55,063 bases of DNA from Actinomycetes bacterium (lineage in GTDB: Bacteria; Actinomycetota; Acidimicrobiia; Acidimicrobiales; Acidimicrobiaceae). The translations under genes and the position numbers were made by a program. The stretch is from NCBI GenBank assembly GCA_021786375.1, contig JAJYNL010000053.1, forward strand, positions 1 through 55,063, read 5' to 3'. Shown here piece by piece: positions 6,605-50,288 of the stretch. A model generated the notes under the pieces. The model was not told where the DNA came from and ran no database searches. It saw nothing but the letters and a program-made list of their open reading frames with translations. Each line of letters opens with the position of its first letter. Position 1 is the stretch's first letter.

Positions 6605-7252
6605 CTACAGAACGTAGAAGAGGACGAAGAACAGGATCGACATGATGGACAACGCATTCCATGCGTATGTAAATCCCTCAAGGTTCGCCCTGAAGTTCTC
6701 CGCCTTCGGCTGACGGGAAATACCGACTCCGCCATCTCCGTCCAGCACCGCGCGGTTGCGCACAAGCCGAACCAGCAAGGTCTCGAGCCAGTACATATGG
6801 AGCAGGATAATGATCGAGTAAACGGGCGCAAAGGCCACGAACACCCCACCGTACCCGGAAGCACCCGGGAAGAAGTTCAGCCTGGTCAGCTCCCAAATCT
6901 GGAAACCGCCCGCAAGAACCCCAAGCCCGAGGGCCACGAAGCCCCCTACCAACCAGTCGATTGTCGAGCCACTACGGAGGCGCCGAGCCCCGACAGACTG
7001 CACAATCGCGCTTCCTAAAACGCAGGCCAGGATCAGCGAACCCAGCAGCACGGAGGCGGTCTGGTGATGCGGATCCCACAACCCATGGGAGTTCAAGGAG
7101 CGCAGGTAGAAGTAGGCGAAGACAAGCCCACCGAACGCCGTGATGGTCAGAGCGATCGAGATTCGCGAACCCCACCACAGCGAGCCAAGGGCCGCCTCGT
7201 GATACAGCTGCTCCTCGTCTACTGCCGGCCTGTCCTCAGTGATCTCACTCAT
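6605..7252 (-). CDS. ctaE: Cytochrome c oxidase subunit III
   Basis: 215 residues with five membrane helices, the short bacterial form of subunit III. Typical features are LGSLWWGSRISIALTIT, the FAYFYLRS segment in the first helix, and the C-terminal FTYAWNALSIMSILFFVLFYVL-type final helix. Subunit III supports proton uptake and stabilises the catalytic subunit I. It starts directly after the subunit I stop with no gap, so translation is probably coupled. The 39-residue membrane peptide gene follows after 48 bases. Confidence 0.88.
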   Translation of the reverse strand: MSEITEDRPAVDEEQLYHEAALGSLWWGSRISIALTITAFGGLVFAYFYLRSLNSHGLWDPHHQTASVLLGSLILACVLGSAIVQSVGARRLRSGSTIDWLVGGFVALGLGVLAGGFQIWELTRLNFFPGASGYGGVFVAFAPVYSIIILLHMYWLETLLVRLVRNRAVLDGDGGVGISRQPKAENFRANLEGFTYAWNALSIMSILFFVLFYVL

Positions 7253-9190
7253 TTATGCCCTCCCAACCGGATCGAGGTCCTTGGTCTCGTTGACGATGTC
7301 GGCAACGGGCAGGGCGTTTGGATCGCCGTACTCATATGGCCAGGACAACACGACGGGAACTCGCTTGAAGTTGTAAGCGGGCGGCGGATAGGACTCCACG
7401 TACCACTCCAGGCTCCGCGAGCCCCAGGGATTCCTTACCGTCGGCTTGCGTGTAACAGCAAGCTGCCAGACGAAGGTAACCGCAAAGAAGAGCAGCGAAG
7501 CTCCGAGCAGGTAGGCCGAGATCGACACCCACTGATTCAGGAACTGCAGCCGGTGAGCGTACTCGAAGACCCGACGCGGCATCCCCAACAATCCCACCGC
7601 GAAGAGCGGGAGGAAGGTTGAATTGAAGAAGATGATCATGGTCCAGAAGTGAATCTTCCCCAGCTTCTCGGAAAGCTGGTATCCGGTCACGAGTGGTGTC
7701 CAATAGTAGATCGCCCCAAAGAACGCGAAGATTACCCCACCCATGATCGTGTAGTGGAAGTGAGCCATGACGAAGAAGCTTCCATGCACGGTGACGTTGA
7801 TCGGCACGTCCGAGACGTAAACACCGGTCAGCCCACCGAAGAGGAAGTTGAAGTACACACCAAGCATGAAGAGCATCGGCGTCGTGAGCCGAATCCTCGC
7901 ACGCCACAGGGTGCCCATTCCCACCAGGTAAATAAAGCCCGTCGGGATGGAGATCAGCTCCGTCGTCAGCATGAACAGCGGCCGCATGTCCGGATTCATT
8001 CCACTCTGGAAGAGGTGGTGCTGCCACACGAAGAAGCTCAGAATCGCCAGGCCGATGAATCCGGCCGCAGAGGTCTTGTACGCAAATATGGGTTTACGGG
8101 CAAAGACGGGAATGATCTCCGCGACCAGGCCGAATCCGGGTATTGCCAGCAAGTACACCTCGGGATGGCCGAAGAACCAGAACAGATTCTCCCAAAGGAA
8201 CGACGACCCCCCGTGTCCCGAGTACAGAAGTGAAGTCTGGGCAGTGCGGTCGAGCGCCAACACATACAGACCATCGATCAGCACTGGAATGGACAGGATC
8301 ATGGTAAAGCCAAGCGAGAGCATCGACCACCCCATGACCGGGAGCCTGCTCCAGGACATACCGGGCGCTCTGTAGTTGATGATCGTCGCCACGATATTGG
8401 TCGAGGCGCAGACCATCGAGAGGCCCTGCAGGCCGAAGCCGAGGATATAGGTATCCTGACCAACACCCTGCTGAACCGAGAGTGGAGCGTAACCGGTCCA
8501 TCCGGACTGGAAGCCACCTTGCCAAAGGCCGGAGAGAAGGATGAAGTAGGAGATAGGGGTGAACCAGAACGAAAGAGCCTCGAGACGGGGGAAAGCCACC
8601 CGCTTGGAGCCGATCATCAAGGGCACCACGTAGTTTCCGAACGGACCGAGGACAACCGAGGTCATCATCATCATCATCATGGTTCCATGCTCGCCCACGA
8701 TTTCGATGTAGGTGTCAGGGCTCCAGATGTGATAGGTAGGCGAGAGAAGCTCGGTCCGGATGGCCAGGGCGAGCAGGCCGGCGGTGAAGAAGTAGACGAG
8801 CATACCGAAGAGGTACTGCACGCCCACCGTCTTGTGGTCCAGGGTGTAGCGGAAGTACTTCGTCCACCCTTTCTCCGTGACCGGCTCCTCAGCCTCAGCC
8901 TCAACACCGAAGAGCTTCTGGATCGGGTAGTTAAGTGCGCCCAGTCCGGCGAACCAACCAATGATCATGAAGATGTAGCCCATGAACTCCGCGATGTCGT
9001 TTGACCCGGAACCCTGAACCTGCTGATAGCCCTGGGTGAAGGAGTTACCTATCCAGTGGCCGAGCAACCATCCAATCACACCGCCGATGATGCCGGTGAT
9101 GATGCTCGGCCTGAGCAGACCACCCCCGCCTCCACCTGGCGCGCCGCTCGAAGAACCGGTACCGGTCGCTTTCGAGTAGTCAATTGCCAT
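7253..9190 (-). CDS. ctaD: Heme-copper oxidase subunit I with altered proton-channel residues
   Basis: 645 residues, about 100 more than usual. The extra N-terminal part has a Gly/Ser-rich start and two added membrane helices (about 28-50 and 68-90) before the canonical YTLDHKTVG opening. The catalytic core is intact: heme a ligands H168 and H479, heme a3 ligand H477, CuB ligands H342, H391 and H392, cross-link Tyr Y346, and E344 of GHPEVY, which marks an A-family enzyme. Unusually, the position of the D-channel Asp holds R197 (GSKRVAFP), the following channel Asn is E204, the K-channel Lys is I420 (IPTGFI) and the Mg-site Asp is G470 (VHGSFF). M171 to M176 form a run of six Met. A GGAGG site precedes the ATG. 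It reduces oxygen to water using electrons from subunit II. Confidence 0.93.
   Translation of the reverse strand: MAIDYSKATGTGSSSGAPGGGGGGLLRPSIITGIIGGVIGWLLGHWIGNSFTQGYQQVQGSGSNDIAEFMGYIFMIIGWFAGLGALNYPIQKLFGVEAEAEEPVTEKGWTKYFRYTLDHKTVGVQYLFGMLVYFFTAGLLALAIRTELLSPTYHIWSPDTYIEIVGEHGTMMMMMMTSVVLGPFGNYVVPLMIGSKRVAFPRLEALSFWFTPISYFILLSGLWQGGFQSGWTGYAPLSVQQGVGQDTYILGFGLQGLSMVCASTNIVATIINYRAPGMSWSRLPVMGWSMLSLGFTMILSIPVLIDGLYVLALDRTAQTSLLYSGHGGSSFLWENLFWFFGHPEVYLLAIPGFGLVAEIIPVFARKPIFAYKTSAAGFIGLAILSFFVWQHHLFQSGMNPDMRPLFMLTTELISIPTGFIYLVGMGTLWRARIRLTTPMLFMLGVYFNFLFGGLTGVYVSDVPINVTVHGSFFVMAHFHYTIMGGVIFAFFGAIYYWTPLVTGYQLSEKLGKIHFWTMIIFFNSTFLPLFAVGLLGMPRRVFEYAHRLQFLNQWVSISAYLLGASLLFFAVTFVWQLAVTRKPTVRNPWGSRSLEWYVESYPPPAYNFKRVPVVLSWPYEYGDPNALPVADIVNETKDLDPVGRA
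8663..8680. repeat. Six-copy CAT/ATG trinucleotide repeat inside ctaD
   Basis: A perfect (CAT)6 on the plus strand, read as six consecutive ATG codons in ctaD directly after the heme a ligand HGT. It could change length by slippage without shifting the frame. Confidence 0.95.
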
Positions 9191-9253: not shown

Positions 9254-10165
9254 CTAAAGATTCGCATTCGGGTCCTGCGGCGGATAATATCCGCCACCGT
9301 TGCCGGCATACGAGGGCGTATAGGTGGTCGCGTACTTGGGCAGCAGCTTGGTGACCGCGGCATTCTGCGCTTCCATCTGCGTTGCCCACTGCTGGAACTG
9401 CGCCTGGGAGACGACGTACCCGTAGTTGTACATGGCACCGTGCCAGACACCACAAAGCTCGTCACAGCGCACCGTAAACCGGCCGAGCTGCTGAGTCTTG
9501 GTGAAGGCGACGTTGTTGACATCCGGATTGGCGTCGGCCTTGACCCCGAGCTGATATGCCCAGAAGTCGTGGATCACGTCCAGGCTGGTGACGTTGAACT
9601 GAATCTCCGTGTTCACCGGCAGATATATGCTCGTCGTCTCCATCCCGCCGAACTGCGGCCAGCGATAGGTGAAACGCCACTGCTGGGCGATCACCTGCAC
9701 CTGCAGCATGTTCTTGGTCTTGGGGGTCCAGATCGGGCTGGGACCCTCGCCGCCGCCTGCACCGGCGGGCACAACCAGGAAATACGTGCCGAAGGCAGCC
9801 AGGAAGAGCACCAGGACGGTCGTGATGATATACCACGCACCCTGAGTCTTGGAGTTCCCGCGGAAATCCGCAGCCGGAGCCAACGGATCCTCGCCCGGCT
9901 TCACGCGCCACTTGACCAGCGAGTAACCGAAGAAGATCCAGATGAAGAACAATACCGGCGGCACCAGAGTCGACACGAACCTGATGTCGAACTGGGCACC
10001 CGCAGCCTGGTCGGTCATCGTTCCGGGTGGCAGATGCGGCCCCAGGACGAACCACACCAGCAGGGAGCCGATCAGGGAGGTCACTATCCAAACTGCGATG
10101 AGCTTGGGTATCGCCTTCCTGGTCGCCTCAACGGATCTCGAATCATCGAGAGCGTTCTGCGACAT
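9254..10165 (-). CDS. ctaC: Cytochrome c oxidase subunit II with CuA site
   Basis: 303 residues. Three hydrophobic helices (about 21-41, 64-84 and 109-131) precede the periplasmic-side cupredoxin domain; most subunit II proteins have two. The CuA ligands are complete: H199 (VIHDFW), then C234, E236, C238, H242 and M245 in the CDELCGVWHGAM segment. The aromatic patch QQWRFTYRWP matches the electron entry region. A Gly/Pro/Tyr-rich tail follows the domain. It begins immediately after the stop of the upstream cupredoxin gene, and ctaD follows 63 bases later. It takes electrons from a periplasmic donor and passes them to heme a. Confidence 0.92.
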   Translation of the reverse strand: MSQNALDDSRSVEATRKAIPKLIAVWIVTSLIGSLLVWFVLGPHLPPGTMTDQAAGAQFDIRFVSTLVPPVLFFIWIFFGYSLVKWRVKPGEDPLAPAADFRGNSKTQGAWYIITTVLVLFLAAFGTYFLVVPAGAGGGEGPSPIWTPKTKNMLQVQVIAQQWRFTYRWPQFGGMETTSIYLPVNTEIQFNVTSLDVIHDFWAYQLGVKADANPDVNNVAFTKTQQLGRFTVRCDELCGVWHGAMYNYGYVVSQAQFQQWATQMEAQNAAVTKLLPKYATTYTPSYAGNGGGYYPPQDPNANL

Positions 10166-10840
10166 TTACGCCACCACCTTCAGGAATCCGCCCATGTACC
10201 CCACTGTCGTCATGGGCCCACCGTTCCCGTTGAGGAAGCCCAAGCCGCAGGGCACAAAGCACTGCCAGCGGTACATCCCCGGGTTACCGGTCTTGATGTC
10301 GAACGTGATGGTGTTGTGCAACTGGCTCATAGTGCATGGACCCGCATTGCAGAAGTTGCTGGCATTGCCATTAACTCCGGCAAAGGGGACGTTGATCCCC
10401 AGGGCAGGCACGTTGAACGAGTGGCCGATACCGTTGCCGACTTGGTCATTGAAATAAGTAGCCGACTTCCCGTTGAGGTAGGCAACGCCGCCTACAGTAC
10501 CTGCGACTTGGTCCCACACAGGATTGCGGAATCCGGAGCCGGAGTCATACTGATAGACGGTGAAATGAACGTCGGAATGTGCTGGAAGTTGAATGATAGT
10601 GGTTTGGATCCACTGTCCACTCGCATTCTGCACCCGGTACCCAACCCAGCTCGGATGTGGGCCGGTGCCCACAGCTCCGTCGACCTGCATTGTGACGTTC
10701 ACTACCCCGGGAGTGGAAGACGGTTGTGCGGAGATAGTTGGCGGCTTATGTAGCAGCCAACCCACGACGCCGTAGACCACGAGAGCCAAGGCGATCGCGA
10801 AGCCGACGACTACGAAAGCCGCTCGAGCTCCTTTCGACAA
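10166..10840 (-). CDS. Membrane-anchored cupredoxin with CuA-like CxxxC (AcoP-like position)
   Basis: 224 residues. A TTG start at 10840 follows AAAGGGG; no ATG is available. One N-terminal anchor helix (about 8-30) precedes an exported beta domain. Copper-type elements are H140 (GHSFNVPALGI), the strand ending NPGMYRWQC, then C194-x3-C198-G, and M210 or M216. This resembles a CuA loop, but the His normally four residues after the second Cys is missing (CGLGF). A further Cys pair, C164 and C169, could form a disulfide. It is the first gene of the oxidase operon, as acoP precedes coxBACD in the A. ferrooxidans rus operon. It probably delivers electrons to, or stabilises, subunit II (inference). 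Whether it binds one or two copper ions is open. Confidence 0.72.
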   Translation of the reverse strand: MSKGARAAFVVVGFAIALALVVYGVVGWLLHKPPTISAQPSSTPGVVNVTMQVDGAVGTGPHPSWVGYRVQNASGQWIQTTIIQLPAHSDVHFTVYQYDSGSGFRNPVWDQVAGTVGGVAYLNGKSATYFNDQVGNGIGHSFNVPALGINVPFAGVNGNASNFCNAGPCTMSQLHNTITFDIKTGNPGMYRWQCFVPCGLGFLNGNGGPMTTVGYMGGFLKVVA

Positions 10841-11124: not shown

Positions 11125-11751
11125 CTAGGAAGAAAGCAGCGCAGTAACGCGCTGCGTCAGAGTCTTGTTCGAGATCGCCCCGGCCACATAGCCCTTGACG
11201 ATTCCCTTGGCGGAGACGAAGACGGTGACGGGGACGCCGGGTATCAGATAAGGCCCGACCAGATCCCCGTTGGCGTCGAGCACCGTCGGGTAAGGCACGT
11301 GATCGGCCTGCACCATCTGCAGAGCCGACGAAGCGCCCGAGGTTTCGGCAACGCCTATGAAGTTGATCTTGCCGGCGTACCTGGCCCCAAGCGCCGCGAA
11401 GGTTGGCATTTCTTCACGGCAGGGTACACAAGCAGGCGAGAAGAAGTTAATGACCACCGGTTTGCCAAGCAGCTGCCCGAGAGCCACCGACCGCGACGAA
11501 TCAGCGAGGCTCGGAAGCTTGAATGTTGGTGCGCTCTGACCCACTAGAGACGAACTCGTTAGAACTCCGGATCCCGGCAAATTCGCGGAACCTGTGGCAC
11601 CGCTCTGGGTGGCCTTCATCACCGCGTAGCCCACCAGAGCTGCGAGCACAATAACGACTGCTAGAGCCGCCACCTTGCGTCTTCGTGCGTAGCCCCTCGG
11701 CTCAGCCGGGGTATCGGCTGCGTCCCGATCAGAAATGATGGACAAGGACAT
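11125..11751 (-). CDS. TlpA/ResA-like membrane-anchored thioredoxin
   Basis: 208 residues with an N-terminal anchor helix (about 27-45) and an exported thioredoxin domain. The active site is FFSPACVPCREEMP (CVPC), and the cis-Pro loop is PGVPVTVF. The AhpC/TSA-like opening VGQSAPTFKLPSL is typical of the TlpA family. Such proteins reduce disulfides outside the membrane, in cytochrome c maturation or in preparing the CuA Cys pair of oxidase subunit II. Its place between ctaB and the oxidase genes fits that second job. The ATG lies inside the 3' end of ctaB (23-base overlap), so the two are probably co-transcribed. Confidence 0.85.
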   Translation of the reverse strand: MSLSIISDRDAADTPAEPRGYARRRKVAALAVVIVLAALVGYAVMKATQSGATGSANLPGSGVLTSSSLVGQSAPTFKLPSLADSSRSVALGQLLGKPVVINFFSPACVPCREEMPTFAALGARYAGKINFIGVAETSGASSALQMVQADHVPYPTVLDANGDLVGPYLIPGVPVTVFVSAKGIVKGYVAGAISNKTLTQRVTALLSS

Positions 11752-12634
11752 CGACTCCCATTGCCAGGAAAAGGAGCGTCAGGTATGTAATCGAATAACT
11801 GAAAACGCGCATGGCAAGCTTGGGGCTCTGAGAAGCACGGAGCTTGAAGGCATAATAGAGGAATCCGGCTCCGAGGATGGCCGCCGACACCTCATAGATC
11901 GCGCCCAGATGCGCAACCGGGCCGAGAAGCAAGGTCACCACGACCATCGCGATGGTGTAGATGATGATCTCCCTTGCCGTCCGCTTGAAGGTCGCCACCG
12001 AAGGGAGCATGGGGACACCGGCCGCTGAATAGTCCTCACGATAGCGAAAAGCGAGTGCCCAGAAGTGTGGCGGGGTCCAGAGAAAGATGACCAGGAACAT
12101 GAGCAGTCCGGCCAGGGTGATGTCGTTCTGCACCGCCGCCCACCCGACCAGCACCGGCGCAGCCCCGGCGGCACCACCGATAACGATGTTCTGACTGGAG
12201 GAGCGCTTCAACCACATGGTGTAGACAAAGACGTAGAAGAGCGCAGCCGCCAGCGAGAGCACCGCGGAGAGGAGGTTGACGGAGCGCCAAAGCATCAAGA
12301 AGGAAAGCGCCTCGATGGCAATCGCGAAAGCCAGCCCTGCCGCGGGAGTGATCTCCCCGGTGACGAGCGGACGGGACTTGGTACGCTTCATCACCGCGTC
12401 GATGTCGCGGTCGAACCACATGTTCACCGCATTGGCGCCGCCAGCCGAAAGCGTCCCGCCGGCGAGAGTGACCAAGACCCTCGACAGCGAAGGAAGGCCA
12501 CGCTGGGCAACGACCATGGCGGGGAGAGTCGTGGTCAGCAGAAGCTCGATTATGCGCGGCTTCATTAGCGCCACGTATGCGCGAACCGTCCGCAACCTGA
12601 ATCCAGTCTTGACGGCTACAGGAATGGAATTCAT
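11729..12634 (-). CDS. ctaB: Protoheme IX farnesyltransferase (heme O synthase)
   Basis: 301 residues, the usual length, with about eight or nine membrane helices. UbiA-family Asp-rich motifs are clear: NMWFDRDIDAVMKRTKSRPLVTG near residue 75, and the second cluster FRYREDYSAAGVPMLP near 195. It adds a farnesyl group to heme B to make heme O, the precursor of heme A for the aa3 oxidase encoded next to it. No strong ribosome site is visible before the ATG. The gene faces away from the M24 peptidase, with about 180 bases between the starts. Confidence 0.92.
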   Translation of the reverse strand: MNSIPVAVKTGFRLRTVRAYVALMKPRIIELLLTTTLPAMVVAQRGLPSLSRVLVTLAGGTLSAGGANAVNMWFDRDIDAVMKRTKSRPLVTGEITPAAGLAFAIAIEALSFLMLWRSVNLLSAVLSLAAALFYVFVYTMWLKRSSSQNIVIGGAAGAAPVLVGWAAVQNDITLAGLLMFLVIFLWTPPHFWALAFRYREDYSAAGVPMLPSVATFKRTAREIIIYTIAMVVVTLLLGPVAHLGAIYEVSAAILGAGFLYYAFKLRASQSPKLAMRVFSYSITYLTLLFLAMGVDVLVHHF

Positions 12635-20292: not shown

Positions 20293-20967
20293 CTAGCCCG
20301 CTGCGGTGGTTGTGGTCGCGCGCGCAGGAGCCGTGGTGGTTGTGGTCGAGGAAATTGGCACCCCCGGGGTGCCCGCCGGGATGTTCTGCGTGTAGATTCG
20401 CGCCTGCAACGACGCGCTTACCTGCGAACCATTCACAAGTGGTCCGGTCTGGGTTCCGGATCCCGAGAGGCTGACAGAGCTTGTGACCACGAGGCGTGGA
20501 AGGTTGTCGAGACGATTCAAGAAATCCAGGACCTGGAAGTAGCCGCCCTTGATCTGGATGCCGACGCTTACGGCCGCGGGCAATGACGACCCGGCGGCAC
20601 TCGGTACCTGCGGGGCCTGGGGAGCCGGCTGGGCCGGACTGATCGCGATGAAGCTGATGCCACTCTCATTGGAGATTTGATTGACCATGAGAATAAAGTC
20701 AGCAAGTTGCGGATACTGCGGGATCGCCGTTGTGAGCCGGGCAAGCTCCGCCTTGGCTGTCGGTAGCTGCGCCTTGAATGCTTCCAGGGTCGCCACCTCT
20801 GCTCGTGCACTGGCTTGCTCGCTCTGTAGCGATGCGAGCTGGAGGTTGGCCGAGGAGATCTCCTTGCCTTTAGGTAACCAGATGAGAAAGATGAAGGCCC
20901 CGACGAACACCACGCCAACCAGAAGCGCTACCGCGAATATCATCCGCCTGCGCATCATCGACTTCAT
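20293..20967 (-). CDS. pilO: PilO-like type IV pilus inner-membrane protein
   Basis: 224 residues: one helix (about 11-30), a coiled coil rich in Ala, Leu, Gln and Glu (about 35-85), and a ferredoxin-like domain containing ADFILMVNQISNESGISFIAISP and GGYFQVLDFLNRLDNLPRLVV, both typical of PilO. The tail is Thr/Ala-rich and variable. PilO pairs with PilN to form the alignment complex that connects the PilM ring to the exported parts. The start overlaps the end of the PilM-PilN gene by four bases (ATGA), so expression is coupled. Confidence 0.82.
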   Translation of the reverse strand: MKSMMRRRMIFAVALLVGVVFVGAFIFLIWLPKGKEISSANLQLASLQSEQASARAEVATLEAFKAQLPTAKAELARLTTAIPQYPQLADFILMVNQISNESGISFIAISPAQPAPQAPQVPSAAGSSLPAAVSVGIQIKGGYFQVLDFLNRLDNLPRLVVTSSVSLSGSGTQTGPLVNGSQVSASLQARIYTQNIPAGTPGVPISSTTTTTAPARATTTTAAG

Positions 20968-22838
20968 TGCGAAATGCCCTCCCCGGTAAGGTAGGCCTGA
21001 TATCGACTCGGCGTGACGCTGGGAGCGAGCGTAGCCGTCGAGTCGAAGGACACCACCACGTTGTTTGGAGCGTCAACCGCAGATTCGTTGATGCACATCT
21101 GCCCGGTTGATGCCGTGGAAGAGGAAACCCACGGATCCAGCAAACCTGGCATCGTGGCCAGATCATTCAGCCAGTGGGCTGGTGCCTTCTGCGAGCAGCC
21201 TTGGCCGGCGAAGCTGATGGTCCCTGGCGTCGAGCCCGTAGGGGCCTGACCGCTGAGACTGGTCCACCACACATCGGGCGGAGTGGCGGTGTCGAGGCTG
21301 TTCACCAGGATTGGCCACTGCACGTCGTTCACCAGAAGACTTTGCAAGGTGCTTTGCTGCTTGGTCAGATTGGCCTTGACCTGAGCCACGGGTGCAAGTC
21401 GCGCCAATTGCGCCTGCTCCTGGGAAAGCTGTACCTGGGCCGCTGCAACCTGGTTATTGGCGTTGTTCAACTGGCTGGACCTCAGGGCGGTCAATCCGCC
21501 CAGGACGAGAAGAACGGCGAGCAGGCTTATGCCGGCGACGGCCAGATCTCGACGCACGCGTCTTGCGTCCTCGGCTTCCCCGCCCAGGAGGTTGATCACC
21601 CGCGTGCCATCAGCGGCGATCCAGCGGCCAAGTGCCAAAGCCAGGGCCTCGGGCATTACACCCGTAACCCTGTCCTTGTCCGCCGCCAGCATCTCCGGGA
21701 CGTTGAAGTCGACCAATTCAAGAAGGTCGAGGCGCTCAAGGACGACCTCGGGGGCCAACCCCTGGCGCAGGGAGTCGAAGAAGCCGAAGGCGAGCGAACC
21801 CCCGCCACAAACGAGGACCTTGACCTCGGCTGGATTTTCCTTTTGGAAGAGGTAGGAGCTCAGGGTGGTGGAAATCGACGACGAGATGTCGCTGACCCTT
21901 ACCGCCACCAATCGATCGAGCTCATCCCTGTCCACCCGAGCAGCAAGCTCCTCGGGAACCGGTGTGAAGAGCCCAAGGGCCCGCTTCAACGACTCTGCCT
22001 CGGTCTCCGACAGGTCAAAACGCTCGGCTATCGCAGCCGTCACCGCATCGCCCGCACGGTCCTCGATGGAACGCGCCAAGGTGAGCATTCCATTTTCTGC
22101 GATGCCGATATTGATACTGTCCGCCCCGACCGAAACCACCGCGAGAATTTTTTCCCGCATGGCTCCCCCGGCGACCGGGAAGGCGAGCGTCCGCTCTTCC
22201 TCCGGGTTTCCGCCTAGCTCAGTGGTCTCCACCACGGGATCGACAATTCTTACCGACGATCCGCGACGGCGGCCGTTGGTGCCGACCACCTCGCCTGACC
22301 GCTGGGCCTCCTCTAGGATGACAGCACGCACCAACGCCAGGAAGGAGGTGTCGACCGAGGCAAGGCGCAGGCCCGCCTCCTGGACGACGCTCTTGTAGTC
22401 GGTCAGTAACGCATTGTCCGTGGCCGCCAGGTGAATCGTGAGGGTGCCGTCTTCACGGACCACTCGCCGACCCTTCGGATACTCGAAGTCGACCTCGTAC
22501 TCGCTCGTGTCACCAGGCAGGAAGGTCGTGGCCTCGAACCGCACGGACGAGAGAAGATCCTCGTCCTCCATGCTCGGGAACTCGAGATCACGCAGGTAGA
22601 CACGAGAGCCGGAGAGGCCGACGCAAACGTCCTTTGACTTGAAGTTGCCGTCCGACCACATGCGGCGGATTGCCTCGATGACCGCGCCGTGGTCGCGAAT
22701 GTCGCCACCTACCACGGCACCCTTGGGAAGGGTCACCAGTCCAAAATTAGATACGGTCGGCTTATGCCCCGCATCATATTCAAGCTCGACAGCCTTGACC
22801 GAGAAGGCGCCGATGTCAATTCCAACGACACGCCTCAA
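20964..22838 (-). CDS. pilM: PilM-PilN fusion, type IV pilus assembly
   Basis: 624 residues joining two normally separate proteins. Residues 1 to about 400 are an actin-like ATPase of the PilM type: VVGIDIGAFSVKAVEL (phosphate 1), LAVVSVGADSINIGIAENG (phosphate 2), VLVCGGGSLAFGF (adenosine). A charged, disordered-looking insert lies near 180 to 225. From about 420 a PilN part follows: the NLLGG motif, one helix (about 438-458), a coiled coil (about 460-500) and an exported domain. In most species the PilN N-terminus binds PilM; here they are covalently joined. The TTG start at 22838 follows GGGAGG by eight bases. The stop overlaps pilO. Confidence 0.85.
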   Translation of the reverse strand: MRRVVGIDIGAFSVKAVELEYDAGHKPTVSNFGLVTLPKGAVVGGDIRDHGAVIEAIRRMWSDGNFKSKDVCVGLSGSRVYLRDLEFPSMEDEDLLSSVRFEATTFLPGDTSEYEVDFEYPKGRRVVREDGTLTIHLAATDNALLTDYKSVVQEAGLRLASVDTSFLALVRAVILEEAQRSGEVVGTNGRRRGSSVRIVDPVVETTELGGNPEEERTLAFPVAGGAMREKILAVVSVGADSINIGIAENGMLTLARSIEDRAGDAVTAAIAERFDLSETEAESLKRALGLFTPVPEELAARVDRDELDRLVAVRVSDISSSISTTLSSYLFQKENPAEVKVLVCGGGSLAFGFFDSLRQGLAPEVVLERLDLLELVDFNVPEMLAADKDRVTGVMPEALALALGRWIAADGTRVINLLGGEAEDARRVRRDLAVAGISLLAVLLVLGGLTALRSSQLNNANNQVAAAQVQLSQEQAQLARLAPVAQVKANLTKQQSTLQSLLVNDVQWPILVNSLDTATPPDVWWTSLSGQAPTGSTPGTISFAGQGCSQKAPAHWLNDLATMPGLLDPWVSSSTASTGQMCINESAVDAPNNVVVSFDSTATLAPSVTPSRYQAYLTGEGISQ

Positions 22839-36183: not shown

Positions 36184-39100
36184 TCAGAAGACGAGGCCCG
36201 AGGCGGCGTCTGAGGCCTTCAGAGTCACGGCGCGGTGGATGAGATCCGCCTGCTCCAGTGCGTGCATGGCGGCGGATCCCGTTGCCGGCGAGCCCGCAGG
36301 GACGCGGGACACATGGCGCAAGCGGTAGTCCACTCGCAACAGCGAATGCAGCTGCGAGTGGACGAATGACCAAGCGCCCTGGTTCTCCGGCTCCTCCTGG
36401 AGCCAAACCACCTCAGTCGCCCGGACATACCTTGCCAGCACTGCCGCGATCTCCTCGACGGGCCAAGGATAGAGCTGCTCGACACGGACGACAGCGCAGG
36501 TCTCCCCTTCCTGCTTGCCTTCGATGATCTGGCCGGCCGCGGCAAGCGCCTCGAAGGCGATCTTGCCGGAGCAAAGGACTACGCGACGCACCTCTCCGGG
36601 GTCACGGCTCGCGGAGATCCCGCTGAAAGTAGGATCGTCGAGAACCGGGTTGAAGCGACCGCCGGTAAGCACCTCGACGGGGACCCTGGCCTGCCGTGCG
36701 CGCAGGAGTGACTTCGGCGAGAAGAGGATGACCGGCCGCGGATTCTGTCGCTTGGGCTGTGCCCGCAGCATGTGGAAGTACTGGCCGGCGGTGGTCAGGT
36801 TCATCACGGCCAGGTTCTCACCGGCACACATCTGCAGGAAGCGCTCCATACGCCCCGACGAATGCTCAGGACCCTGGCCCTCATATCCGTGCGGCAACAG
36901 CATCACCAGTCCGGAACCCTGATCCCATTTGTCATGAGCAGCAGCAATGAACTGATCGATGATTATCTGCGCGCCGTTGCCGAAATCACCGAACTGTGCT
37001 TCCCAAATAACCAGGGTGTCCCGTCTCACCGTCGAATAGCCGTACTCGAAGCCGAGCGCGGCATACTCGGACAGAAGCGAGTCGTAGATCATGAACCGGC
37101 CAAAAGGCCCACGCCGTCCCGCCGAGGTCGCAAAGGTGGCAACGTGCTCGAGGGGGACATAATCCTCGCCGGTGCGGTAGTCGATCAGCGCGGCATGGCG
37201 ATGCGAGAAGGTACCCCTCCGCGAATCCTGGCCGGCCATGCGAACGTCAAAGCCCTCGAGCGCCAGCGTTCCAAAGGCAAGCTGCTCACCCAGACCCCAA
37301 TCCACGTCACCCCCGGCCAGGATCTCGCGGCGCGATTCCAGCTGTCGAACCAACTTGGGATGAACGGTGAACCCGGCGGGGAAGGTGTGCAGCACCTCGC
37401 CGATCAGCTCCAAGTCACTCGGAGCGATATGGGTGTCCACCGCCTCCAGAGCGACATTGTGCTCGGGCGCCTTTGGAAGCTCCGTCGGCTTGGGCGGAGC
37501 CGAGGAACGCGTTTGGTCCAGAGCGGACTGCAGTTGGCCGAGAAAGTCGTCCAGAGACTGCTCCGCCTCATCCATGGAGATGTCGCCTCGGGCCACCAGC
37601 GACTCGGTGTAGAGCTTCCTTACCGAGCGCTTCGCCTCGATGATCTCGTACATCTGAGGTTGCGTGTAACTCGGTTCGTCACCTTCGTTGTGCCCGAAGC
37701 GCCGGTAGCAAACCATGTCCACGACCACATCGCGGTGAAATGCCTCGCGGTAGTCGAGCGCCAGTTCGGCGACCCAGGCGACGGCCTCCGGATCATCCCC
37801 GTTCACGTGGAAGATCGGGGCCTGTATCATCTTGGCGACGTCGGTCGCATAACGCGACGAGCGGGCCTGCTCGGGATTGGTGGTGAAACCAACCTGGTTG
37901 TTGATGACCAGGTGCACCGTGCCGCCAGTACGATAACCGCCGAGCTGGGAAAGGTTGAGCGTCTCGGCCACGACACCCTGTCCGGCAAAAGCCGCGTCAC
38001 CATGTAAAAGCACCGGGAGGATCCTGAAGGATCCACGCTCGCCGGCTATATCCTGCTTGGCCCGGGTCATGCCTTCCACGACCGGATCGACCGCCTCCAG
38101 GTGAGACGGGTTGGACGACAGTGTCACCTCGATGTCGGTCCCGTGGTACCCGCGGTACACGCCACGGAAACCCTTGTGATACTTGACGTCACCAGAGCCC
38201 TGAACGCTGTTGGGGTCCAGGTTGCCCTCGAACTCTTTGAAGATCTCCGAGTAGCTCTTTCCGACGATGTTGGTGAGAACGTTGAGCCGGCCGCGGTGCG
38301 CCATGCCGATGACCGCCTCGCGAAGCCCGGCCTCAGCGCCACGGTCAAGAACCTGGTCCAGGAAGACGATCGCAGCCTCGCCACCTTCCAGGCCAAAGCG
38401 CTTCTGGCCGATGTAGCGGGTGTGAAGGAATCGCTCGAAGGCCTCGGCCGCGTTGAGTTTGCGCAGGAGGTGCATCTTCTGAGTCGTGTCGAGCTCGGGA
38501 CGGGCACCCTCCACTCTCCGCTGGATCCACTCCTTCTGCGCTGGGTCCTGGATGAACATGTACTCCATGCCGATGGTCCGGCAATAGGTATCCCTCAGGA
38601 GCTGCAGCAAGGCTCCGAGCGTCATAGAAGTGTGGCCGCCCAGCCCGCCGCAGTAGAACTCACGGTCGAGGTCCCAGACGGTGAGCCCATACCAGGCCGG
38701 GTCGAGTTCCTCGGGCATGGCCGGCGACTTCTGGGCCAGCGGGTCCAAGCGCGCCATCAGGTGGCCACGTGAGCGGTAGGTGTCGATCAGCTGGTTGACC
38801 ATAGCCTGCTTGCGCATGCGGGTCATGTCTCCCGGCTCGCGACCTGCGCTATCACGCTCCCAGGTGGCAGGAGGGTACGGGACCGACATTGCGTCGAAGA
38901 CTTCCTGATAGAAACCGTGCTGGCCAGTGAGCAGCTCGTGGATCCTGGCGAGAAAGAGCCCGGACTCCGCCCCCTGTATGACCCGGTGATCGTAAGTCGA
39001 AGTGAGCGTCACGGTCTTCGAAACACCGAGATCCACCAAGAGCGACGGATCCGCGGCGGCCATTCCGGTCGGGAAGGAGATCGAACCCACACCGATTATC

Positions 39101-39978
39101 GCGCCCTGGCCGAGCATCAGCCGCGGCACGGAGTGCTCCGTGCCGATGGTTCCGGGGTTCGTCACGCTGACGGTCGCCCCCACAAAATCGTCCGGTGACA
39201 GCTTGTTGGTCCGCACCTTCCTGATCAGGTTCTCGTATTCCCTGAGAAAGGCGAAGAAATCCATCTCCTGCGCCGAGCGGATCACGGGGACCATGAGAGT
39301 CCGCGAGCCATCCGCCTTCGCCATGTCTACCGCGATGCCGACGTTGATCTCCTTTGAGCGCTGCACGCCAGGCGTACCCTTTGCGTCGATCGATGACACG
39401 AAGACGGAGTTCATGACGGGATAGGCCTTGACCGCCTGCACAATCGCGTAGGCGATTATGTGTGTAAAGGAAACCTTTTCGCCCGAGGACCGCGCGAGAT
39501 GGTTGTTGATGATTCCGCGGTTGACCTCGAGGAGCTTGGCCGGAATCGAGCGGACGCTGGTCGCGGTGGGCACCTCAAGCGAGGCGGTCATATTGGCCAC
39601 GATCCGCGCCGCCGCGCCGCGAATGGCAATGACCTCCGCACCCGCGGGCGCAACGTAGGCCGCTGGCGTGGGCTTGGAAGCCTCGGCCGCCGGAGCGATC
39701 GGCGCAGCCGGGGCTGCGGGTGTAGCCGAAACCGCCTCAGCCGACGTGCTTGGAACGGGAGAGGGTACGAATGTCGCCGTTGCCGGCGTCAGCTGCTCGG
39801 ATGGTGCCGGCAGCTCCGTCTTGGCGGGGGCGACTTCCTCGCGGTAGTAGCCCGAGAAAAAGTCACGCCACGACTCGGGCACCGAGGCGGGATCGCGCTT
39901 GTAGGCCTCGTAATACTCCTCCACCAACCAGGAGTTCGGGCCGAAGGTGTTAACTGCATCGATGTGTTTCTCTGCCAC
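36184..39978 (-). CDS. kgd: Multifunctional 2-oxoglutarate decarboxylase/dehydrogenase E1/E2 (Kgd type)
   Basis: 1264 residues, the actinobacterial fusion. Residues 1-45 are the E1-type N-terminal segment (FGPNSWLVEEYYEAYKRDP). A Pro/Ala linker runs to about 115, then a succinyltransferase (E2) catalytic domain to about 350 with TSTYDHRVIQGAESG. From about 390 the ThDP-dependent E1 follows, with YRSRGHLMARLDPL, GMAHRGRLNVL, HGDAAFAGQGVVAETLNLS and the pyrimidine-domain region WEAQFGDFGNGAQIIIDQF. There is no lipoyl domain, as in other Kgd proteins, so a separate lipoylated E2 must be encoded elsewhere. It decarboxylates 2-oxoglutarate for the TCA cycle. A GTG start with TAGCAT six bases upstream suggests leaderless translation. 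Confidence 0.95.
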   Translation of the reverse strand: MAEKHIDAVNTFGPNSWLVEEYYEAYKRDPASVPESWRDFFSGYYREEVAPAKTELPAPSEQLTPATATFVPSPVPSTSAEAVSATPAAPAAPIAPAAEASKPTPAAYVAPAGAEVIAIRGAAARIVANMTASLEVPTATSVRSIPAKLLEVNRGIINNHLARSSGEKVSFTHIIAYAIVQAVKAYPVMNSVFVSSIDAKGTPGVQRSKEINVGIAVDMAKADGSRTLMVPVIRSAQEMDFFAFLREYENLIRKVRTNKLSPDDFVGATVSVTNPGTIGTEHSVPRLMLGQGAIIGVGSISFPTGMAAADPSLLVDLGVSKTVTLTSTYDHRVIQGAESGLFLARIHELLTGQHGFYQEVFDAMSVPYPPATWERDSAGREPGDMTRMRKQAMVNQLIDTYRSRGHLMARLDPLAQKSPAMPEELDPAWYGLTVWDLDREFYCGGLGGHTSMTLGALLQLLRDTYCRTIGMEYMFIQDPAQKEWIQRRVEGARPELDTTQKMHLLRKLNAAEAFERFLHTRYIGQKRFGLEGGEAAIVFLDQVLDRGAEAGLREAVIGMAHRGRLNVLTNIVGKSYSEIFKEFEGNLDPNSVQGSGDVKYHKGFRGVYRGYHGTDIEVTLSSNPSHLEAVDPVVEGMTRAKQDIAGERGSFRILPVLLHGDAAFAGQGVVAETLNLSQLGGYRTGGTVHLVINNQVGFTTNPEQARSSRYATDVAKMIQAPIFHVNGDDPEAVAWVAELALDYREAFHRDVVVDMVCYRRFGHNEGDEPSYTQPQMYEIIEAKRSVRKLYTESLVARGDISMDEAEQSLDDFLGQLQSALDQTRSSAPPKPTELPKAPEHNVALEAVDTHIAPSDLELIGEVLHTFPAGFTVHPKLVRQLESRREILAGGDVDWGLGEQLAFGTLALEGFDVRMAGQDSRRGTFSHRHAALIDYRTGEDYVPLEHVATFATSAGRRGPFGRFMIYDSLLSEYAALGFEYGYSTVRRDTLVIWEAQFGDFGNGAQIIIDQFIAAAHDKWDQGSGLVMLLPHGYEGQGPEHSSGRMERFLQMCAGENLAVMNLTTAGQYFHMLRAQPKRQNPRPVILFSPKSLLRARQARVPVEVLTGGRFNPVLDDPTFSGISASRDPGEVRRVVLCSGKIAFEALAAAGQIIEGKQEGETCAVVRVEQLYPWPVEEIAAVLARYVRATEVVWLQEEPENQGAWSFVHSQLHSLLRVDYRLRHVSRVPAGSPATGSAAMHALEQADLIHRAVTLKASDAASGLVF

Positions 39979-47960: not shown

Positions 47961-50288
47961 ATGGCGATCTTCTCGGCGCGCACCAGGGGCGAATTAGCGC
48001 TCGTCCTGTCGGCGGTCTTGACCGCAGGGGGAGGGCTTTCCCACTTGGTGGGCGAGGCGGGCTGGTCCCACCAACTCTTTCTCGCATCCACCATCGTTGG
48101 CATTCTGGTCTCGGCTGCCACCATCATCTTCGGCCTAGTCCAGAAGAGTTTCCGGGTCGACATCATTGCTTTGCTGGCACTCATCGGAACTGTGCTGGTA
48201 CACGAATATCTGGCCGGCGCCGTCGTCACCTTGATGCTCTTGGGCGGGCGAAACCTGGAGGACTACGCCACCGGACACGCCAAGCGGGAGCTGAAGCTGC
48301 TGGTCGAGCGCGCCCCGGTCAGCGCCCACGTCGAACGGCCCGGGGGCCTTTTCACTATCCCTCTTACCGAGGTTGCACCGGGCGAGACAATTGTGGTGGC
48401 AAGCGGCGAGGTCGTGCCGCTGGACGGCGAACTCCTCGACGACAGGAGTGTGCTCGACGAATCCGCGCTCACCGGCGAGCCGATGCCCGTAGAGCACTTG
48501 CGGGGAGAACCATTGCGCAGTGGCGTGGTCAACGTCTCCAACCCGTTCATGATGGTCACAACCTCCGACGCCCAAAGCTCCACATATGCCCGGATCGTCC
48601 GGTTGGCCCAGGAGGCCGAGGCGGGTTCAGCGCCATTCGTACGAATGGCGGACCGATACGCCCTTTGGTTCCTCTTCGCGACCCTTGCGGTCTCCGGTCT
48701 CGCCTGGGGGTTCAGCCACGAGTTCACACGAGCCGTGGCGGTCCTGGTGGTCGCGACACCATGCCCGCTCATTCTCGCCGCTCCGGTGGCAATCGTATCG
48801 GGCCTCTCCCGGTCGGCTCGGGTCGGGGTGGTGATCAAGGGTGGAGCAGAACTCGAAAAGCTCGCCCGTTCGAAGGTGCTCCTTCTGGACAAGACCGGAA
48901 CCCTTACACGCGGCGCTCCCCATGTCACCCAGGTGGTGGCTTCGCCGGGGATCGACGCTGACGCCGTCCTCGGGTTCGCCGCCTCCCTTGACCAGAGATC
49001 CCAGCATCCGTTGGCCACAGCTTTGGTGAGCGCCGCCCGCGAACGTGGCCTCGTTCTCACGCAGCCGGCCAATGTCAGCGAGATCCCTGGTCAGGGAATC
49101 AGCGGCGTAATCCAGGGAATGCCGGTCAAGCTTGGCAAGGCCGGGTTCGTCGGAGTCGGCCACGACGAACCATGGGTCGAGGGCGCACTTAGGCGCGCGT
49201 CATTCGAGGGGTCGATGACGATTTTCACCTCGATCGGAGAGAAGGCCGGGCTGGTGCTCCTGGACGACCCCGTGCGCCCCGATGCCAGCAGGACGCTGCG
49301 AGGTTTTAGGGCTCAGGGCATCGACCGCATCGTGATGCTGACGGGAGATCGCCGGCCGGTGGCCGAAGCTGTGGGGACGGCCCTCGGTATCGACGGCATC
49401 TACTCCGACTGCACGCCAGAGGACAAGGTGGCGGCGGCCAGGGCCGAGGCTCACTTCGGACCCACGGCAATGGTTGGAGACGGCATCAACGATGCTCCCG
49501 CTTTGGCGGTCGCCGACGTAGGGATAGCCGTTGCCTCGCGTGGACAGAGCGCGTCGTCGGAGGCTGCCGGGGTCGTCCTAACCGTTGACCGCATCGAACC
49601 GCTGGTGGCTTCGCTCGGGATCGCACACCGATCGTTCAGGATCGCCACCCAGAGTGCGCTGGCGGGCGTGGGCCTCTCGTTGGCGGCCATGCTGATCGCG
49701 GCAAGTGGCAACTTGACCCCCACCTGGGGGGCAATCGCCCAGGAGGGAATCGACCTGGCGGTCATTCTCAACGCCCTGCGAGTTCTGCGCGTTCCGCGAT
49801 CGAAACTCTCCTTTTCCGCCGAGACCGTCGAGCTCGCCGAGAAGTTGCAGGCTGAGCACCTCCAACTCAGATCCGGAGTTGACGACATGCTGGCGCTCGC
49901 AGGTGGACTCGACTTGATGAACGCGGAGGAGAGGCTGAGCGGGCTTCGAAACTGCCGGATGTTCCTCCAGCAGAAGGTGGTCCCTCACGAGCGTACCGAA
50001 AACGACGTGCTCTATCCCGCCCTGGACCAGGCCATGGGCCTACAGGGCGCCACTTCGGTCATGGCGCGGGAACACGCGGAGATCTTCTCCCTGGCTAGGA
50101 GGCTGGAGATGGTCGAGGATGACCTTGCCTCAGGCGCGGCAGGGTCAGGAGACGTCTCCGAGGCCCGACAAGTCCTCTACGGCCTGCACGCCATCCTCAA
50201 ACTTCACTTCGAGCAGGAGGAGGAATCCTACTTCTCGCTTGGAGAACTGGCTGGAACAAGAGGTGGCCGGTTCCAGCAACCGGCTTGA
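47961..50288 (+). CDS. P1B-5-type metal-transporting ATPase with C-terminal hemerythrin domain
   Basis: 775 residues. There is no N-terminal heavy-metal-binding domain; the protein begins with paired helices. The actuator domain has DESALTGEPMPVE. The metal-site helix reads VVATPCPLILAAPVA with T266-P267-C268-P269, the TPC form assigned to subgroup P1B-5. Phosphorylation Asp D310 lies in LLDKTGTLTRG, the His of SQHPLA binds nucleotide, and MVGDGINDAPAL closes the core. From about residue 630 a hemerythrin-like domain follows with LQAEHLQLR, VVPHERTENDVLYP, REHAEIF and LHAILKLHFEQEEESYF. Known members of this group are linked to nickel and iron export and iron or oxygen sensing through the tail. 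AAGGAG precedes the ATG. Confidence 0.92.
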   Translation: MAIFSARTRGELALVLSAVLTAGGGLSHLVGEAGWSHQLFLASTIVGILVSAATIIFGLVQKSFRVDIIALLALIGTVLVHEYLAGAVVTLMLLGGRNLEDYATGHAKRELKLLVERAPVSAHVERPGGLFTIPLTEVAPGETIVVASGEVVPLDGELLDDRSVLDESALTGEPMPVEHLRGEPLRSGVVNVSNPFMMVTTSDAQSSTYARIVRLAQEAEAGSAPFVRMADRYALWFLFATLAVSGLAWGFSHEFTRAVAVLVVATPCPLILAAPVAIVSGLSRSARVGVVIKGGAELEKLARSKVLLLDKTGTLTRGAPHVTQVVASPGIDADAVLGFAASLDQRSQHPLATALVSAARERGLVLTQPANVSEIPGQGISGVIQGMPVKLGKAGFVGVGHDEPWVEGALRRASFEGSMTIFTSIGEKAGLVLLDDPVRPDASRTLRGFRAQGIDRIVMLTGDRRPVAEAVGTALGIDGIYSDCTPEDKVAAARAEAHFGPTAMVGDGINDAPALAVADVGIAVASRGQSASSEAAGVVLTVDRIEPLVASLGIAHRSFRIATQSALAGVGLSLAAMLIAASGNLTPTWGAIAQEGIDLAVILNALRVLRVPRSKLSFSAETVELAEKLQAEHLQLRSGVDDMLALAGGLDLMNAEERLSGLRNCRMFLQQKVVPHERTENDVLYPALDQAMGLQGATSVMAREHAEIFSLARRLEMVEDDLASGAAGSGDVSEARQVLYGLHAILKLHFEQEEESYFSLGELAGTRGGRFQQPA

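Follow-up and report, generated by a model that had tools for sequence, protein, structure and literature searches.

How does a cytochrome c oxidase take up protons once residues that define both of its classical proton channels have been replaced? The question is raised by COX1, the gene of cytochrome c oxidase subunit I on a contig of an Acidimicrobiaceae bacterium (JAJYNL010000053.1, assembly GCA_021786375.1; the whole stretch of 55,063 nucleotides that was analyzed is called the window below). A preliminary description of this DNA, based on an alignment by eye with bovine and Rhodobacter subunit I, had proposed that the heme and CuB ligands, the cross-linked Tyr, and the Glu of GHPEVY are kept, with R197 at the D-channel entry Asp, E204 at the D-channel Asn, I420 at the K-channel Lys, and G470 at the Mg-site Asp. 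The four changes are confirmed as real and not chance: They recur in 56 of 128 homologues. The reading we prefer, tentatively, is that of a working oxidase that has given up its K-pathway in subunits I and II and has had its D-path rewired, and which would pump little and draw on a high-potential donor.

Replaced residues in an A-family subunit I

The gene encodes 645 amino acids from an ATG start, its coordinates including the stop codon. The positions that matter below are these (Paracoccus numbering, used here for channel residues, in parentheses):

7253..9190, minus strand: COX1, cytochrome c oxidase subunit I with the A-family fold, of the basic-D/Glu-N group
8942..9103, minus strand: two extra N-terminal helices (residues 30-83), the "2TM" trait
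8657..8662, minus strand: T177-S178, polar, in helix II
8600..8602, minus strand: R197 at the D-channel Asp (D124)
8579..8581, minus strand: E204 at the D-channel Asn (N131)
8414..8416, minus strand: M259 at the D-channel Ser (S193)
8159..8161, minus strand: E344, the Glu of GHPEVY
8120..8122, minus strand: A357 at the K-channel Ser of helix VI (S291)
7958..7960, minus strand: E411 (M345)
7931..7933, minus strand: I420 at the K-channel Lys (K354)
7847..7849, minus strand: N448, co-inherited with E411
7808..7810, minus strand: D461, co-inherited with E411
7781..7783, minus strand: G470 at the Mg-site Asp (D404)
7748..7750, minus strand: T481, co-inherited with E411
9842..9844, minus strand: Q108 of subunit II, at the usual K-channel entrance Glu

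The protein matches PF00115 (E = 4e-123) and TIGR02891 (E = 1e-159; 532 bits, under the cut-off of 671). Its AlphaFold2 model (mean predicted local distance difference test [pLDDT] 87, predicted template modeling score 0.88) superposes on R. sphaeroides subunit I with a Z score of 51.8 and a root mean square deviation of 1.3 A over 493 residues. The six His ligands of the two hemes and CuB that, with the COX1 fold, define subunit I of the heme-copper oxidase superfamily are all present (H168, H342, H391, H392, H477, and H479), and Y346 in helix VI is the cross-link Tyr-I of an O2 reductase, not an NO reductase. By descent the protein belongs to the A family: Among the best 60 of 65 matches in a PDB sequence search, A-type chains score E = 4e-116 to 5e-42, ba3 chains 9e-10 and weaker, and cbb3 2e-8. 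It lacks the B-type K-channel set (Thr, Ser, and Tyr in Table 2 of PMC3084760), having I420, T417, and A357, and it lacks the C-type Tyr-II of helix VII, since Tyr-I is present and the sole helix VII Tyr, Y371, is also found in Paracoccus. The model has two additional N-terminal transmembrane helices (residues 30-52 and 65-83), the trait by which PMC8239418 describes the 2TM COX1 group.

We compared the protein with a census of 128 aligned COX1 rows, comprising 30 loci from 60 related genomes, two further loci of its own genome, the best 80 of 574 relatives among loci of named genomes (these include L040-L062, which fall in the group defined below), ten loci from 396 genomes of the phylum (match limit E = 1e-140), and six reference loci. 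Duplicates of the window protein and of another oxidase of the same genome (L002) were excluded, as were three CtaA loci. Both the census and the trees rest on homologues picked for likeness to the window protein, and the 128 rows contain near-copies, some genomes being in both the named and the unnamed collections. A thinned set holds 89 rows (<90% identity, at least 500 amino acids; three fragments removed by length).

Residue 197 is basic in 56 of the 128 rows (Arg in 40, Lys in 16), and every one of these has Glu (54) or Gln (2) at 204; rows with this pairing are called the group. Outside the group, Asp stands at 197 without exception (72 rows), with Asn at 204 in 70 of these. In the thinned set the group comprises 32 of 89 rows (197: R 26, K 6; 204: E 31, Q 1), and the pairing is fixed down to ~50% identity. 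Lys420 is absent from all 56 group rows, whereas each of them has E344, E411, and Gly470. The cross-link Tyr, the His residues that bind heme a3 and CuB, and the heme a ligand His479 are likewise kept in 56 of 56, and the other heme a ligand, His168, in all 53 filled rows. The ratio of nonsynonymous to synonymous substitution rates (dN/dS) against three same-genus relatives is 0.022-0.031, indicating purifying selection and ruling out gene decay. As decay would scatter residues and the replacements are fixed, the conservation argues for a working enzyme that is selectively kept. A scan of viral contigs with six peptide patterns found no relative.

In the multiple alignment that includes Paracoccus, R197, E204, I420, and G470 fall on D124, N131, K354, and D404, and the retained ligands, Tyr, and Glu are where the preliminary description had placed them; its coordinates, strand, length, and residue numbers (E411 included) are exact. 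A local shift could have mimicked these changes. Five phmmer alignments with solved actinobacterial aa3 enzymes are gap-free at residues 190-215, 401-430, and 455-490, and residues 190-203 hold no acid that realignment could supply. Together with the structure match, these alignments rule out misalignment or a shifted acid. Nor were the same changes seen to be widespread in ordinary neutrophile aa3 enzymes, all 72 nongroup rows having Asp at 197, in a set whose members were chosen because they resemble the window protein and so do not form a random sample.

Among the A-type defining residues in Table 2 of PMC3084760, three of eight in the D-channel (D124, N199, N113, N131, Y35, S134, S193, and E278) and two of four in the K-channel (K354, T351, S291, and Y280) are replaced. 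D124, N131, and S193 occur in none of the 56 group rows; N199, N113, Y35, S134, and E278 are kept in the window protein, and the group retains Y35 in 51 of 51 rows, N113 in 53 of 55, N199 in 54 of 56, and S134 in 44 of 56. At the S193 site the group has Met, Leu, or Ile throughout, compared with Ser in 54 of the 60 rows without E411. The polar pair in helix II is largely conserved at S178 (50 Ser, five Ala, and one gap), the equivalent of which, I104, is a D-channel lining site (PMC12901375, Table 2); four of the five Ala rows, two of them near-copies, have Leu, not Met, at 259. Rewiring seems a better description of the D-channel than loss: The acid has shifted seven residues on, from 124 to 131, and a Ser has been lost from helix IV and gained in helix II.

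The changes to the K-channel run through both subunits. In subunit I, I420 stands for K354 and A357 for S291, with T351 and Y280 kept; across the group Lys is found in 0 of 56 rows, and Ser at 357 in one of 56 versus 58 of the 60 rows without E411. In subunit II, Q108 occupies the column that we take, from its motif, to be that of the K-channel entrance Glu. Among rows with an aligned subunit II, Glu is present there in one of 50 group rows, none of the 12 other E411 rows, and 54 of the remaining 57. B-Glu101 lies close to the K-channel entry (PMC8239185). The K-channel is thus dismantled in both subunits. The earlier proposal that proton uptake must do without the usual residues is upheld, the changes being conserved and extending to Met259, Ala357, and Gln108 of subunit II.

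E411 belongs to a wider set of sequences. Glu is found at this site in 68 rows, none of them with Lys420, and is accompanied by D461 (68 of 68 E411 rows, 0 of 60 others), T481 (66 of 68, one of 60), and N448 (65 of 68, two of 60). E411 had been placed nine residues before I420 in the same helix; the spacing stands, but the model breaks the helix at 413. By ideal helix geometry (100 degrees per residue) E411 would lie roughly opposite the old Lys face, in the outer half of the helix. Since the helix is broken and the geometry directs E411 away, it is not an obvious stand-in for Lys, and we judge a simple replacement unlikely on this ideal geometry, as distinct from coordinates. At the Mg site Gly is found in 56 of 56 group rows, next to the retained Mg ligand H469. 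Loss of the Asp was rejected as a mark of the group, as Gly also occurs in three other E411 rows and in three rows without E411 (two with Lys), and Asn in two. The residues of the H-pathway proved uninformative as an explanation, many such sites varying already in rows without E411.

Descent, companion oxidases, and the operon

In the main tree (60 rows, 15 trait columns removed, root not inferred), the basic/Glu rows form one side of a branch (bootstrap 100, Shimodaira-Hasegawa-like approximate likelihood ratio test 99), and a second branch sets off the rows that lack E411 (100/100). Placing the remaining 12 E411 rows takes two changes on the tree. In a quick tree of 65 rows, L002, L130, and L133, which have an intact D-channel entry, no Lys, and Glu344 kept, adjoin the group, and nine A2-like rows with YSHPAV lie farther out. 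With a root among the rows that carry Lys, loss of the K-channel would have preceded the rewiring of the D-channel, each occurring once in this sample. The 2TM oxidases have been argued to be basal (PMC8239418), in which case lack of the Lys could be the older condition; the exchange in the D-channel would still fall on the branch to the group. Because each trait lies on one branch, the co-occurrence of D461, N448, and T481 with E411 shows shared inheritance, not proven coupling.

A homologue at 53% identity or more is found in seven of 396 genomes of the phylum, the window's own included (within the E = 1e-140 limit), and 29 of the 60 related genomes carry the oxidase, again counting its own and one fragment. 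Among the best 80 of 574 relatives, the titles of the 23 named carriers, L040-L062, read "Actinomycetes," Acidimicrobiaceae, Acidiferrimicrobium, Nocardiopsaceae, Gaiellaceae, Actinomycetota, Dormibacterota, and "Bacillota"; with one exception these are metagenome-assembled genomes (MAGs). Four of these titles name palsa or bog, and the others give no habitat. The contig of one carrier, L046 (isolate "MAG 3"), fits MAG 3 of work on acid mine drainage (PMC8357290), where it is listed as an Acidimicrobiaceae member with carbon fixation and, by that study's criteria, without Fe(II) oxidation.

The genome of the window has two further oxidases. One, L001, is an aa3 enzyme that retains Asp and Asn in the D-channel, Lys in the K-channel, and Asp at the Mg site; its S193 site holds Gly. 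The other, L002 (G000:C50), is of the E411 type: Its D-channel Asp and Asn are intact, but its K-channel has neither the Lys nor the Ser, and its Mg site has no Asp. L002 is flanked by a relative of the operon cupredoxin described below and by a subunit III-like open reading frame (ORF). A second COX1, at ~39%-43% identity to the window protein, is present in 28 of the 29 carriers among the 60 genomes, the comparison of residues covering L001. With a canonical L001 and an intermediate L002 in the same genome, the window enzyme is not a cell-wide answer to acid; a better fit is a specialized task that involves a donor of high potential.

The operon has the order cupredoxin, subunit II, subunit I, and subunit III, and two further genes of interest lie near it:

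6605..7252, minus strand: subunit III-like protein, 215 amino acids
9254..10165, minus strand: cytochrome c oxidase subunit II with a complete CuA ligand set
10166..10840, minus strand: membrane-anchored cupredoxin-fold protein, directly upstream of coxB
11125..11751, minus strand: TlpA/ResA-like thioredoxin (library profile matches)
11729..12634, minus strand: heme O synthase CtaB (profile match over the cut-off)

The CuA ligands of subunit II (H199, C234, E236, C238, H242, and M245), which identify a CuA-type cytochrome c oxidase, are complete in every one of the 50 group rows for which subunit II could be aligned. Of 50 other group loci, 45 have the cupredoxin gene, and the five that do not are truncated; H140, H175, C194, C198, and M210 of the cupredoxin are invariant in 21 aligned sequences. 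NCBIfam gives this protein no name and Pfam one subthreshold match. Its model (pLDDT 82, residues 201-209 poor) has a Foldseek E of 3e-4 and reaches Z scores of 8-10, where the usual chance level is 7-8, against a CupA/CopA domain, nitrosocyanin, rusticyanin, and CuA domains. A CuA-like C-x3-C without a His in the Cys-Met loop suggests that this is possibly a new kind of copper partner of an oxidase. Sulfocyanin was rejected as such a partner, given many weak scores, a stop inside the extended frame, and no association with the oxidase.

The subunit III-like protein adjoins COX1 across the group and has no Pfam or NCBIfam match. An acidic residue of subunit III (Asp in cyoC, Glu in Nostoc, Asp beside L002) is Thr36 here and nonacidic in 47 of 48 aligned rows, a comparison with few references, one more of which has Arg, maybe from a wrong frame. 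The TlpA/ResA-like thioredoxin perhaps serves CuA or heme maturation, and several group loci also encode a TlpA-like protein and heme O synthase close to the oxidase. The genome has CtaA, CtaB, and RuBisCO; its CtaA-family genes number two (G000:C47 and C32; L120-L122 are three matches, two of them in one frame). In the window's family, RuBisCO is present in 25 of 28 carriers, and among genomes at least 80% complete, in 24 of 27 carriers and none of four noncarriers (the four being one genus). The window also holds a multifunctional 2-oxoglutarate decarboxylase/dehydrogenase (36184-39978, minus strand), a heavy-metal translocating P-type ATPase (47961-50288, plus strand), and a long PilM-related ORF under its model cut-off (20964-22838, minus strand) in a stretch with aroB- and aroC-like genes.

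Proton path and coupling

In the mechanism that we favor, tentatively, the entry carboxylate would have been relocated from 124 to 131 (E204), with the basic residue beside it at the old site, and the lining Ser from helix IV to helix II. Cytoplasmic protons would travel through this rewired D-path to the retained Glu344. Buried Glu411 would take over from Lys only to the extent of compensating charge or holding a proton close to the binuclear center. O2 reduction would then proceed with little or no pumping, by analogy, since an acid in place of the D-channel Asn decouples bacterial oxidases. The Asn-to-Asp change in R. sphaeroides uncouples pumping with activity slightly up (PMC6934443), and N98D-type mutants are likewise uncoupled (PMC12901375). 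Added to a K-channel Lys mutant, an N98D-type change restores the Pr to F transition (PMC12901375). The group resembles this combination of an acid at the Asn site and loss of the Lys, but with Glu and a basic partner.

The donor is probably of high potential, Fe(II) for example, with electrons entering by CuA and perhaps the operon cupredoxin, and the ordinary aa3 of the same genome would do the pumping. Acidimicrobium and Ferrimicrobium cells with Fe(II) show a-type cytochromes, assigned by the authors to the terminal oxidase (PMC5143472). If Fe(II) (~+0.77 V) is the donor, we estimate from standard potentials that <0.1 V per electron is left with cytoplasmic protons, a margin that would not suffice for pumping against the gradient usual in acidophiles.

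Several points weigh against this account. M259 may narrow the D-path, and the basic residue at its mouth could repel protons. Changing D132 and N139 together (D132N/N139D) reportedly may restore pumping, according to a paper of 2006. With the trait on one branch, the co-occurrence of its parts is not independent proof that they are coupled. RuBisCO is missing in three carriers of the family and in carrier G058 outside it; G006 and G023 have it but not the oxidase (<75% complete; two of four less complete noncarriers of the family), and strong RuBisCO matches without the oxidase occur in G052 and G056, outside the family. Sulfocyanin (PF06525) is scattered over 14 of the 60 genomes, unassociated with the oxidase. 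Equivalent mammalian mutants have no pumping effect (PMC6934443), and the H-pathway and not the D-pathway has been argued to carry pumped protons (PMC12901375).

A bolder account, which we consider doubtful, is that both classical cytoplasmic inputs of this A-family enzyme are disabled and that it is fed by a path unlike D or K, either a neck Glu without an entry acid or a route centered on Glu411, perhaps from the acidic outside. It would then represent one more way of supplying protons to O2-reducing heme-copper oxidases and be a natural nonpumping or differently coupled oxidase for Fe(II) respiration.

It is improbable that the enzyme is a full proton pump, in which the shift of the acid from 124 to 131 would keep the D-channel tight, as in a re-coupled double mutant, with near-normal stoichiometry. 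The acid has indeed been relocated and not lost, and N113, N199, Y35, and E344 are retained, but Glu is longer than Asp, its partner is Arg or Lys instead of Asn, S193 is Met, the K-channel is also gone, and the exit-side Mg-site Asp is Gly.

Equally improbable is a D-path shut by an Arg/Lys-Glu salt bridge and Met259, with a new route in its place, for example through E411/N448/T481 and D461 and possibly leading in from the acidic exterior in the manner of cytochrome c-dependent NO reductase. The three residues that accompany E411, in rows that all lack the Lys, would suit such a route, and by the model's helix boundaries and what we take to be the usual topology, E411 and D461 would lie toward the outside. 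Yet 12 of the 68 E411 rows have an intact D124/N131, so the E411 set alone does not replace the D-path. In residues 100-619, with sides assigned by the same presumed topology, no group-specific new ionizable residue but E204 appears on the cytoplasmic side, and Glu344 is kept throughout. In favor of a closed D-path, Arg also occupies this site in the ba3 oxidase of T. thermophilus, an enzyme whose D-path is said to be inactive (PMC12901375, Table 2).

The preliminary description had suggested that weak pumping would suit a cell facing a large inward proton gradient. That the whole cell adapts to such a gradient through this oxidase is very unlikely: The four palsa or bog titles and the acid mine drainage origin of the MAG that L046 fits (PMC8357290) speak for it, but the same cell keeps L001 with its full set of channel and Mg-site residues, as well as L002, and nearly all carriers have a second COX1. 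An artefact of misalignment, gene decay, or assembly error is scarcely credible, with nothing seen in its favor and with the same pattern in 32 distinct sequences of <90% identity, gap-free alignments, a structure match, and so low a dN/dS.

Comparison with known oxidases

The means by which oxidases keep the protons they pump apart from those they consume are still debated, mostly from point mutants. Here, changes at D132, N139, S201, and K362, together with E101 of subunit II (R. sphaeroides numbering), are combined in a natural enzyme under strong selection. One genome moreover holds three grades: L001 with Asp, Asn, and Lys; L002, K-less with the D-entry intact; and the window enzyme, K-less with the D-entry rewired. 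These look like a natural test of the need for each classical entrance, both in turnover and in pumping, and they bear on how acidophiles may respire with donors too weak to drive a pump. Noncanonical K-channels of family A, including the K^C type shared with family C, have been published (PMC8239418). In the literature searched, with subscription papers mostly outside it, we found no A-family oxidase described as having Arg/Lys with Glu in its D-channel, and no description of the full combination.

The enzyme is like the A1-type aa3 oxidases of Paracoccus, Rhodobacter, and mycobacteria in fold, heme and CuB ligands, Tyr-I, the GHPEVY Glu, a CuA subunit II, and N113, N199, and Y35. It differs from them in lacking D124, N131, S193, K354, S291, D404, and the entrance Glu of subunit II, and in having two extra N-terminal helices. 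These helices and a noncanonical K-channel are common to it and the 2TM COX1 of iron oxidizers (Degli Esposti et al. 2021, PMC8239418), whereas the Arg/Lys with Glu in its D-channel is not described in the parts of that account available to us.

The operon cupredoxin recalls AcoP of the A. ferrooxidans oxidase cluster (PMC4059628), which is also a membrane-anchored cupredoxin encoded with an oxidase. AcoP has C-x6-H-x4-M, whereas the motif of the operon cupredoxin is C-x3-C, with a Cys-Met loop that lacks His; the likeness is one of description.

The ba3 oxidase of T. thermophilus, like the window protein, has Arg (R100) at the D-channel Asp position, but it belongs to family B, whereas the window protein is of family A by sequence and fold. 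At the Asn, Glu278, and Lys sites ba3 has Met, Ile, and Thr, where the window protein has Glu, Glu, and Ile (PMC12901375, Table 2). With the engineered N139D of R. sphaeroides, N131D of Paracoccus, and N99D of yeast, the window enzyme shares an acid at the neck of the D-channel. Unlike these Asn-to-Asp mutants, it is natural, has Glu and not Asp, has exchanged its entry Asp for a base, and is missing the K-channel.

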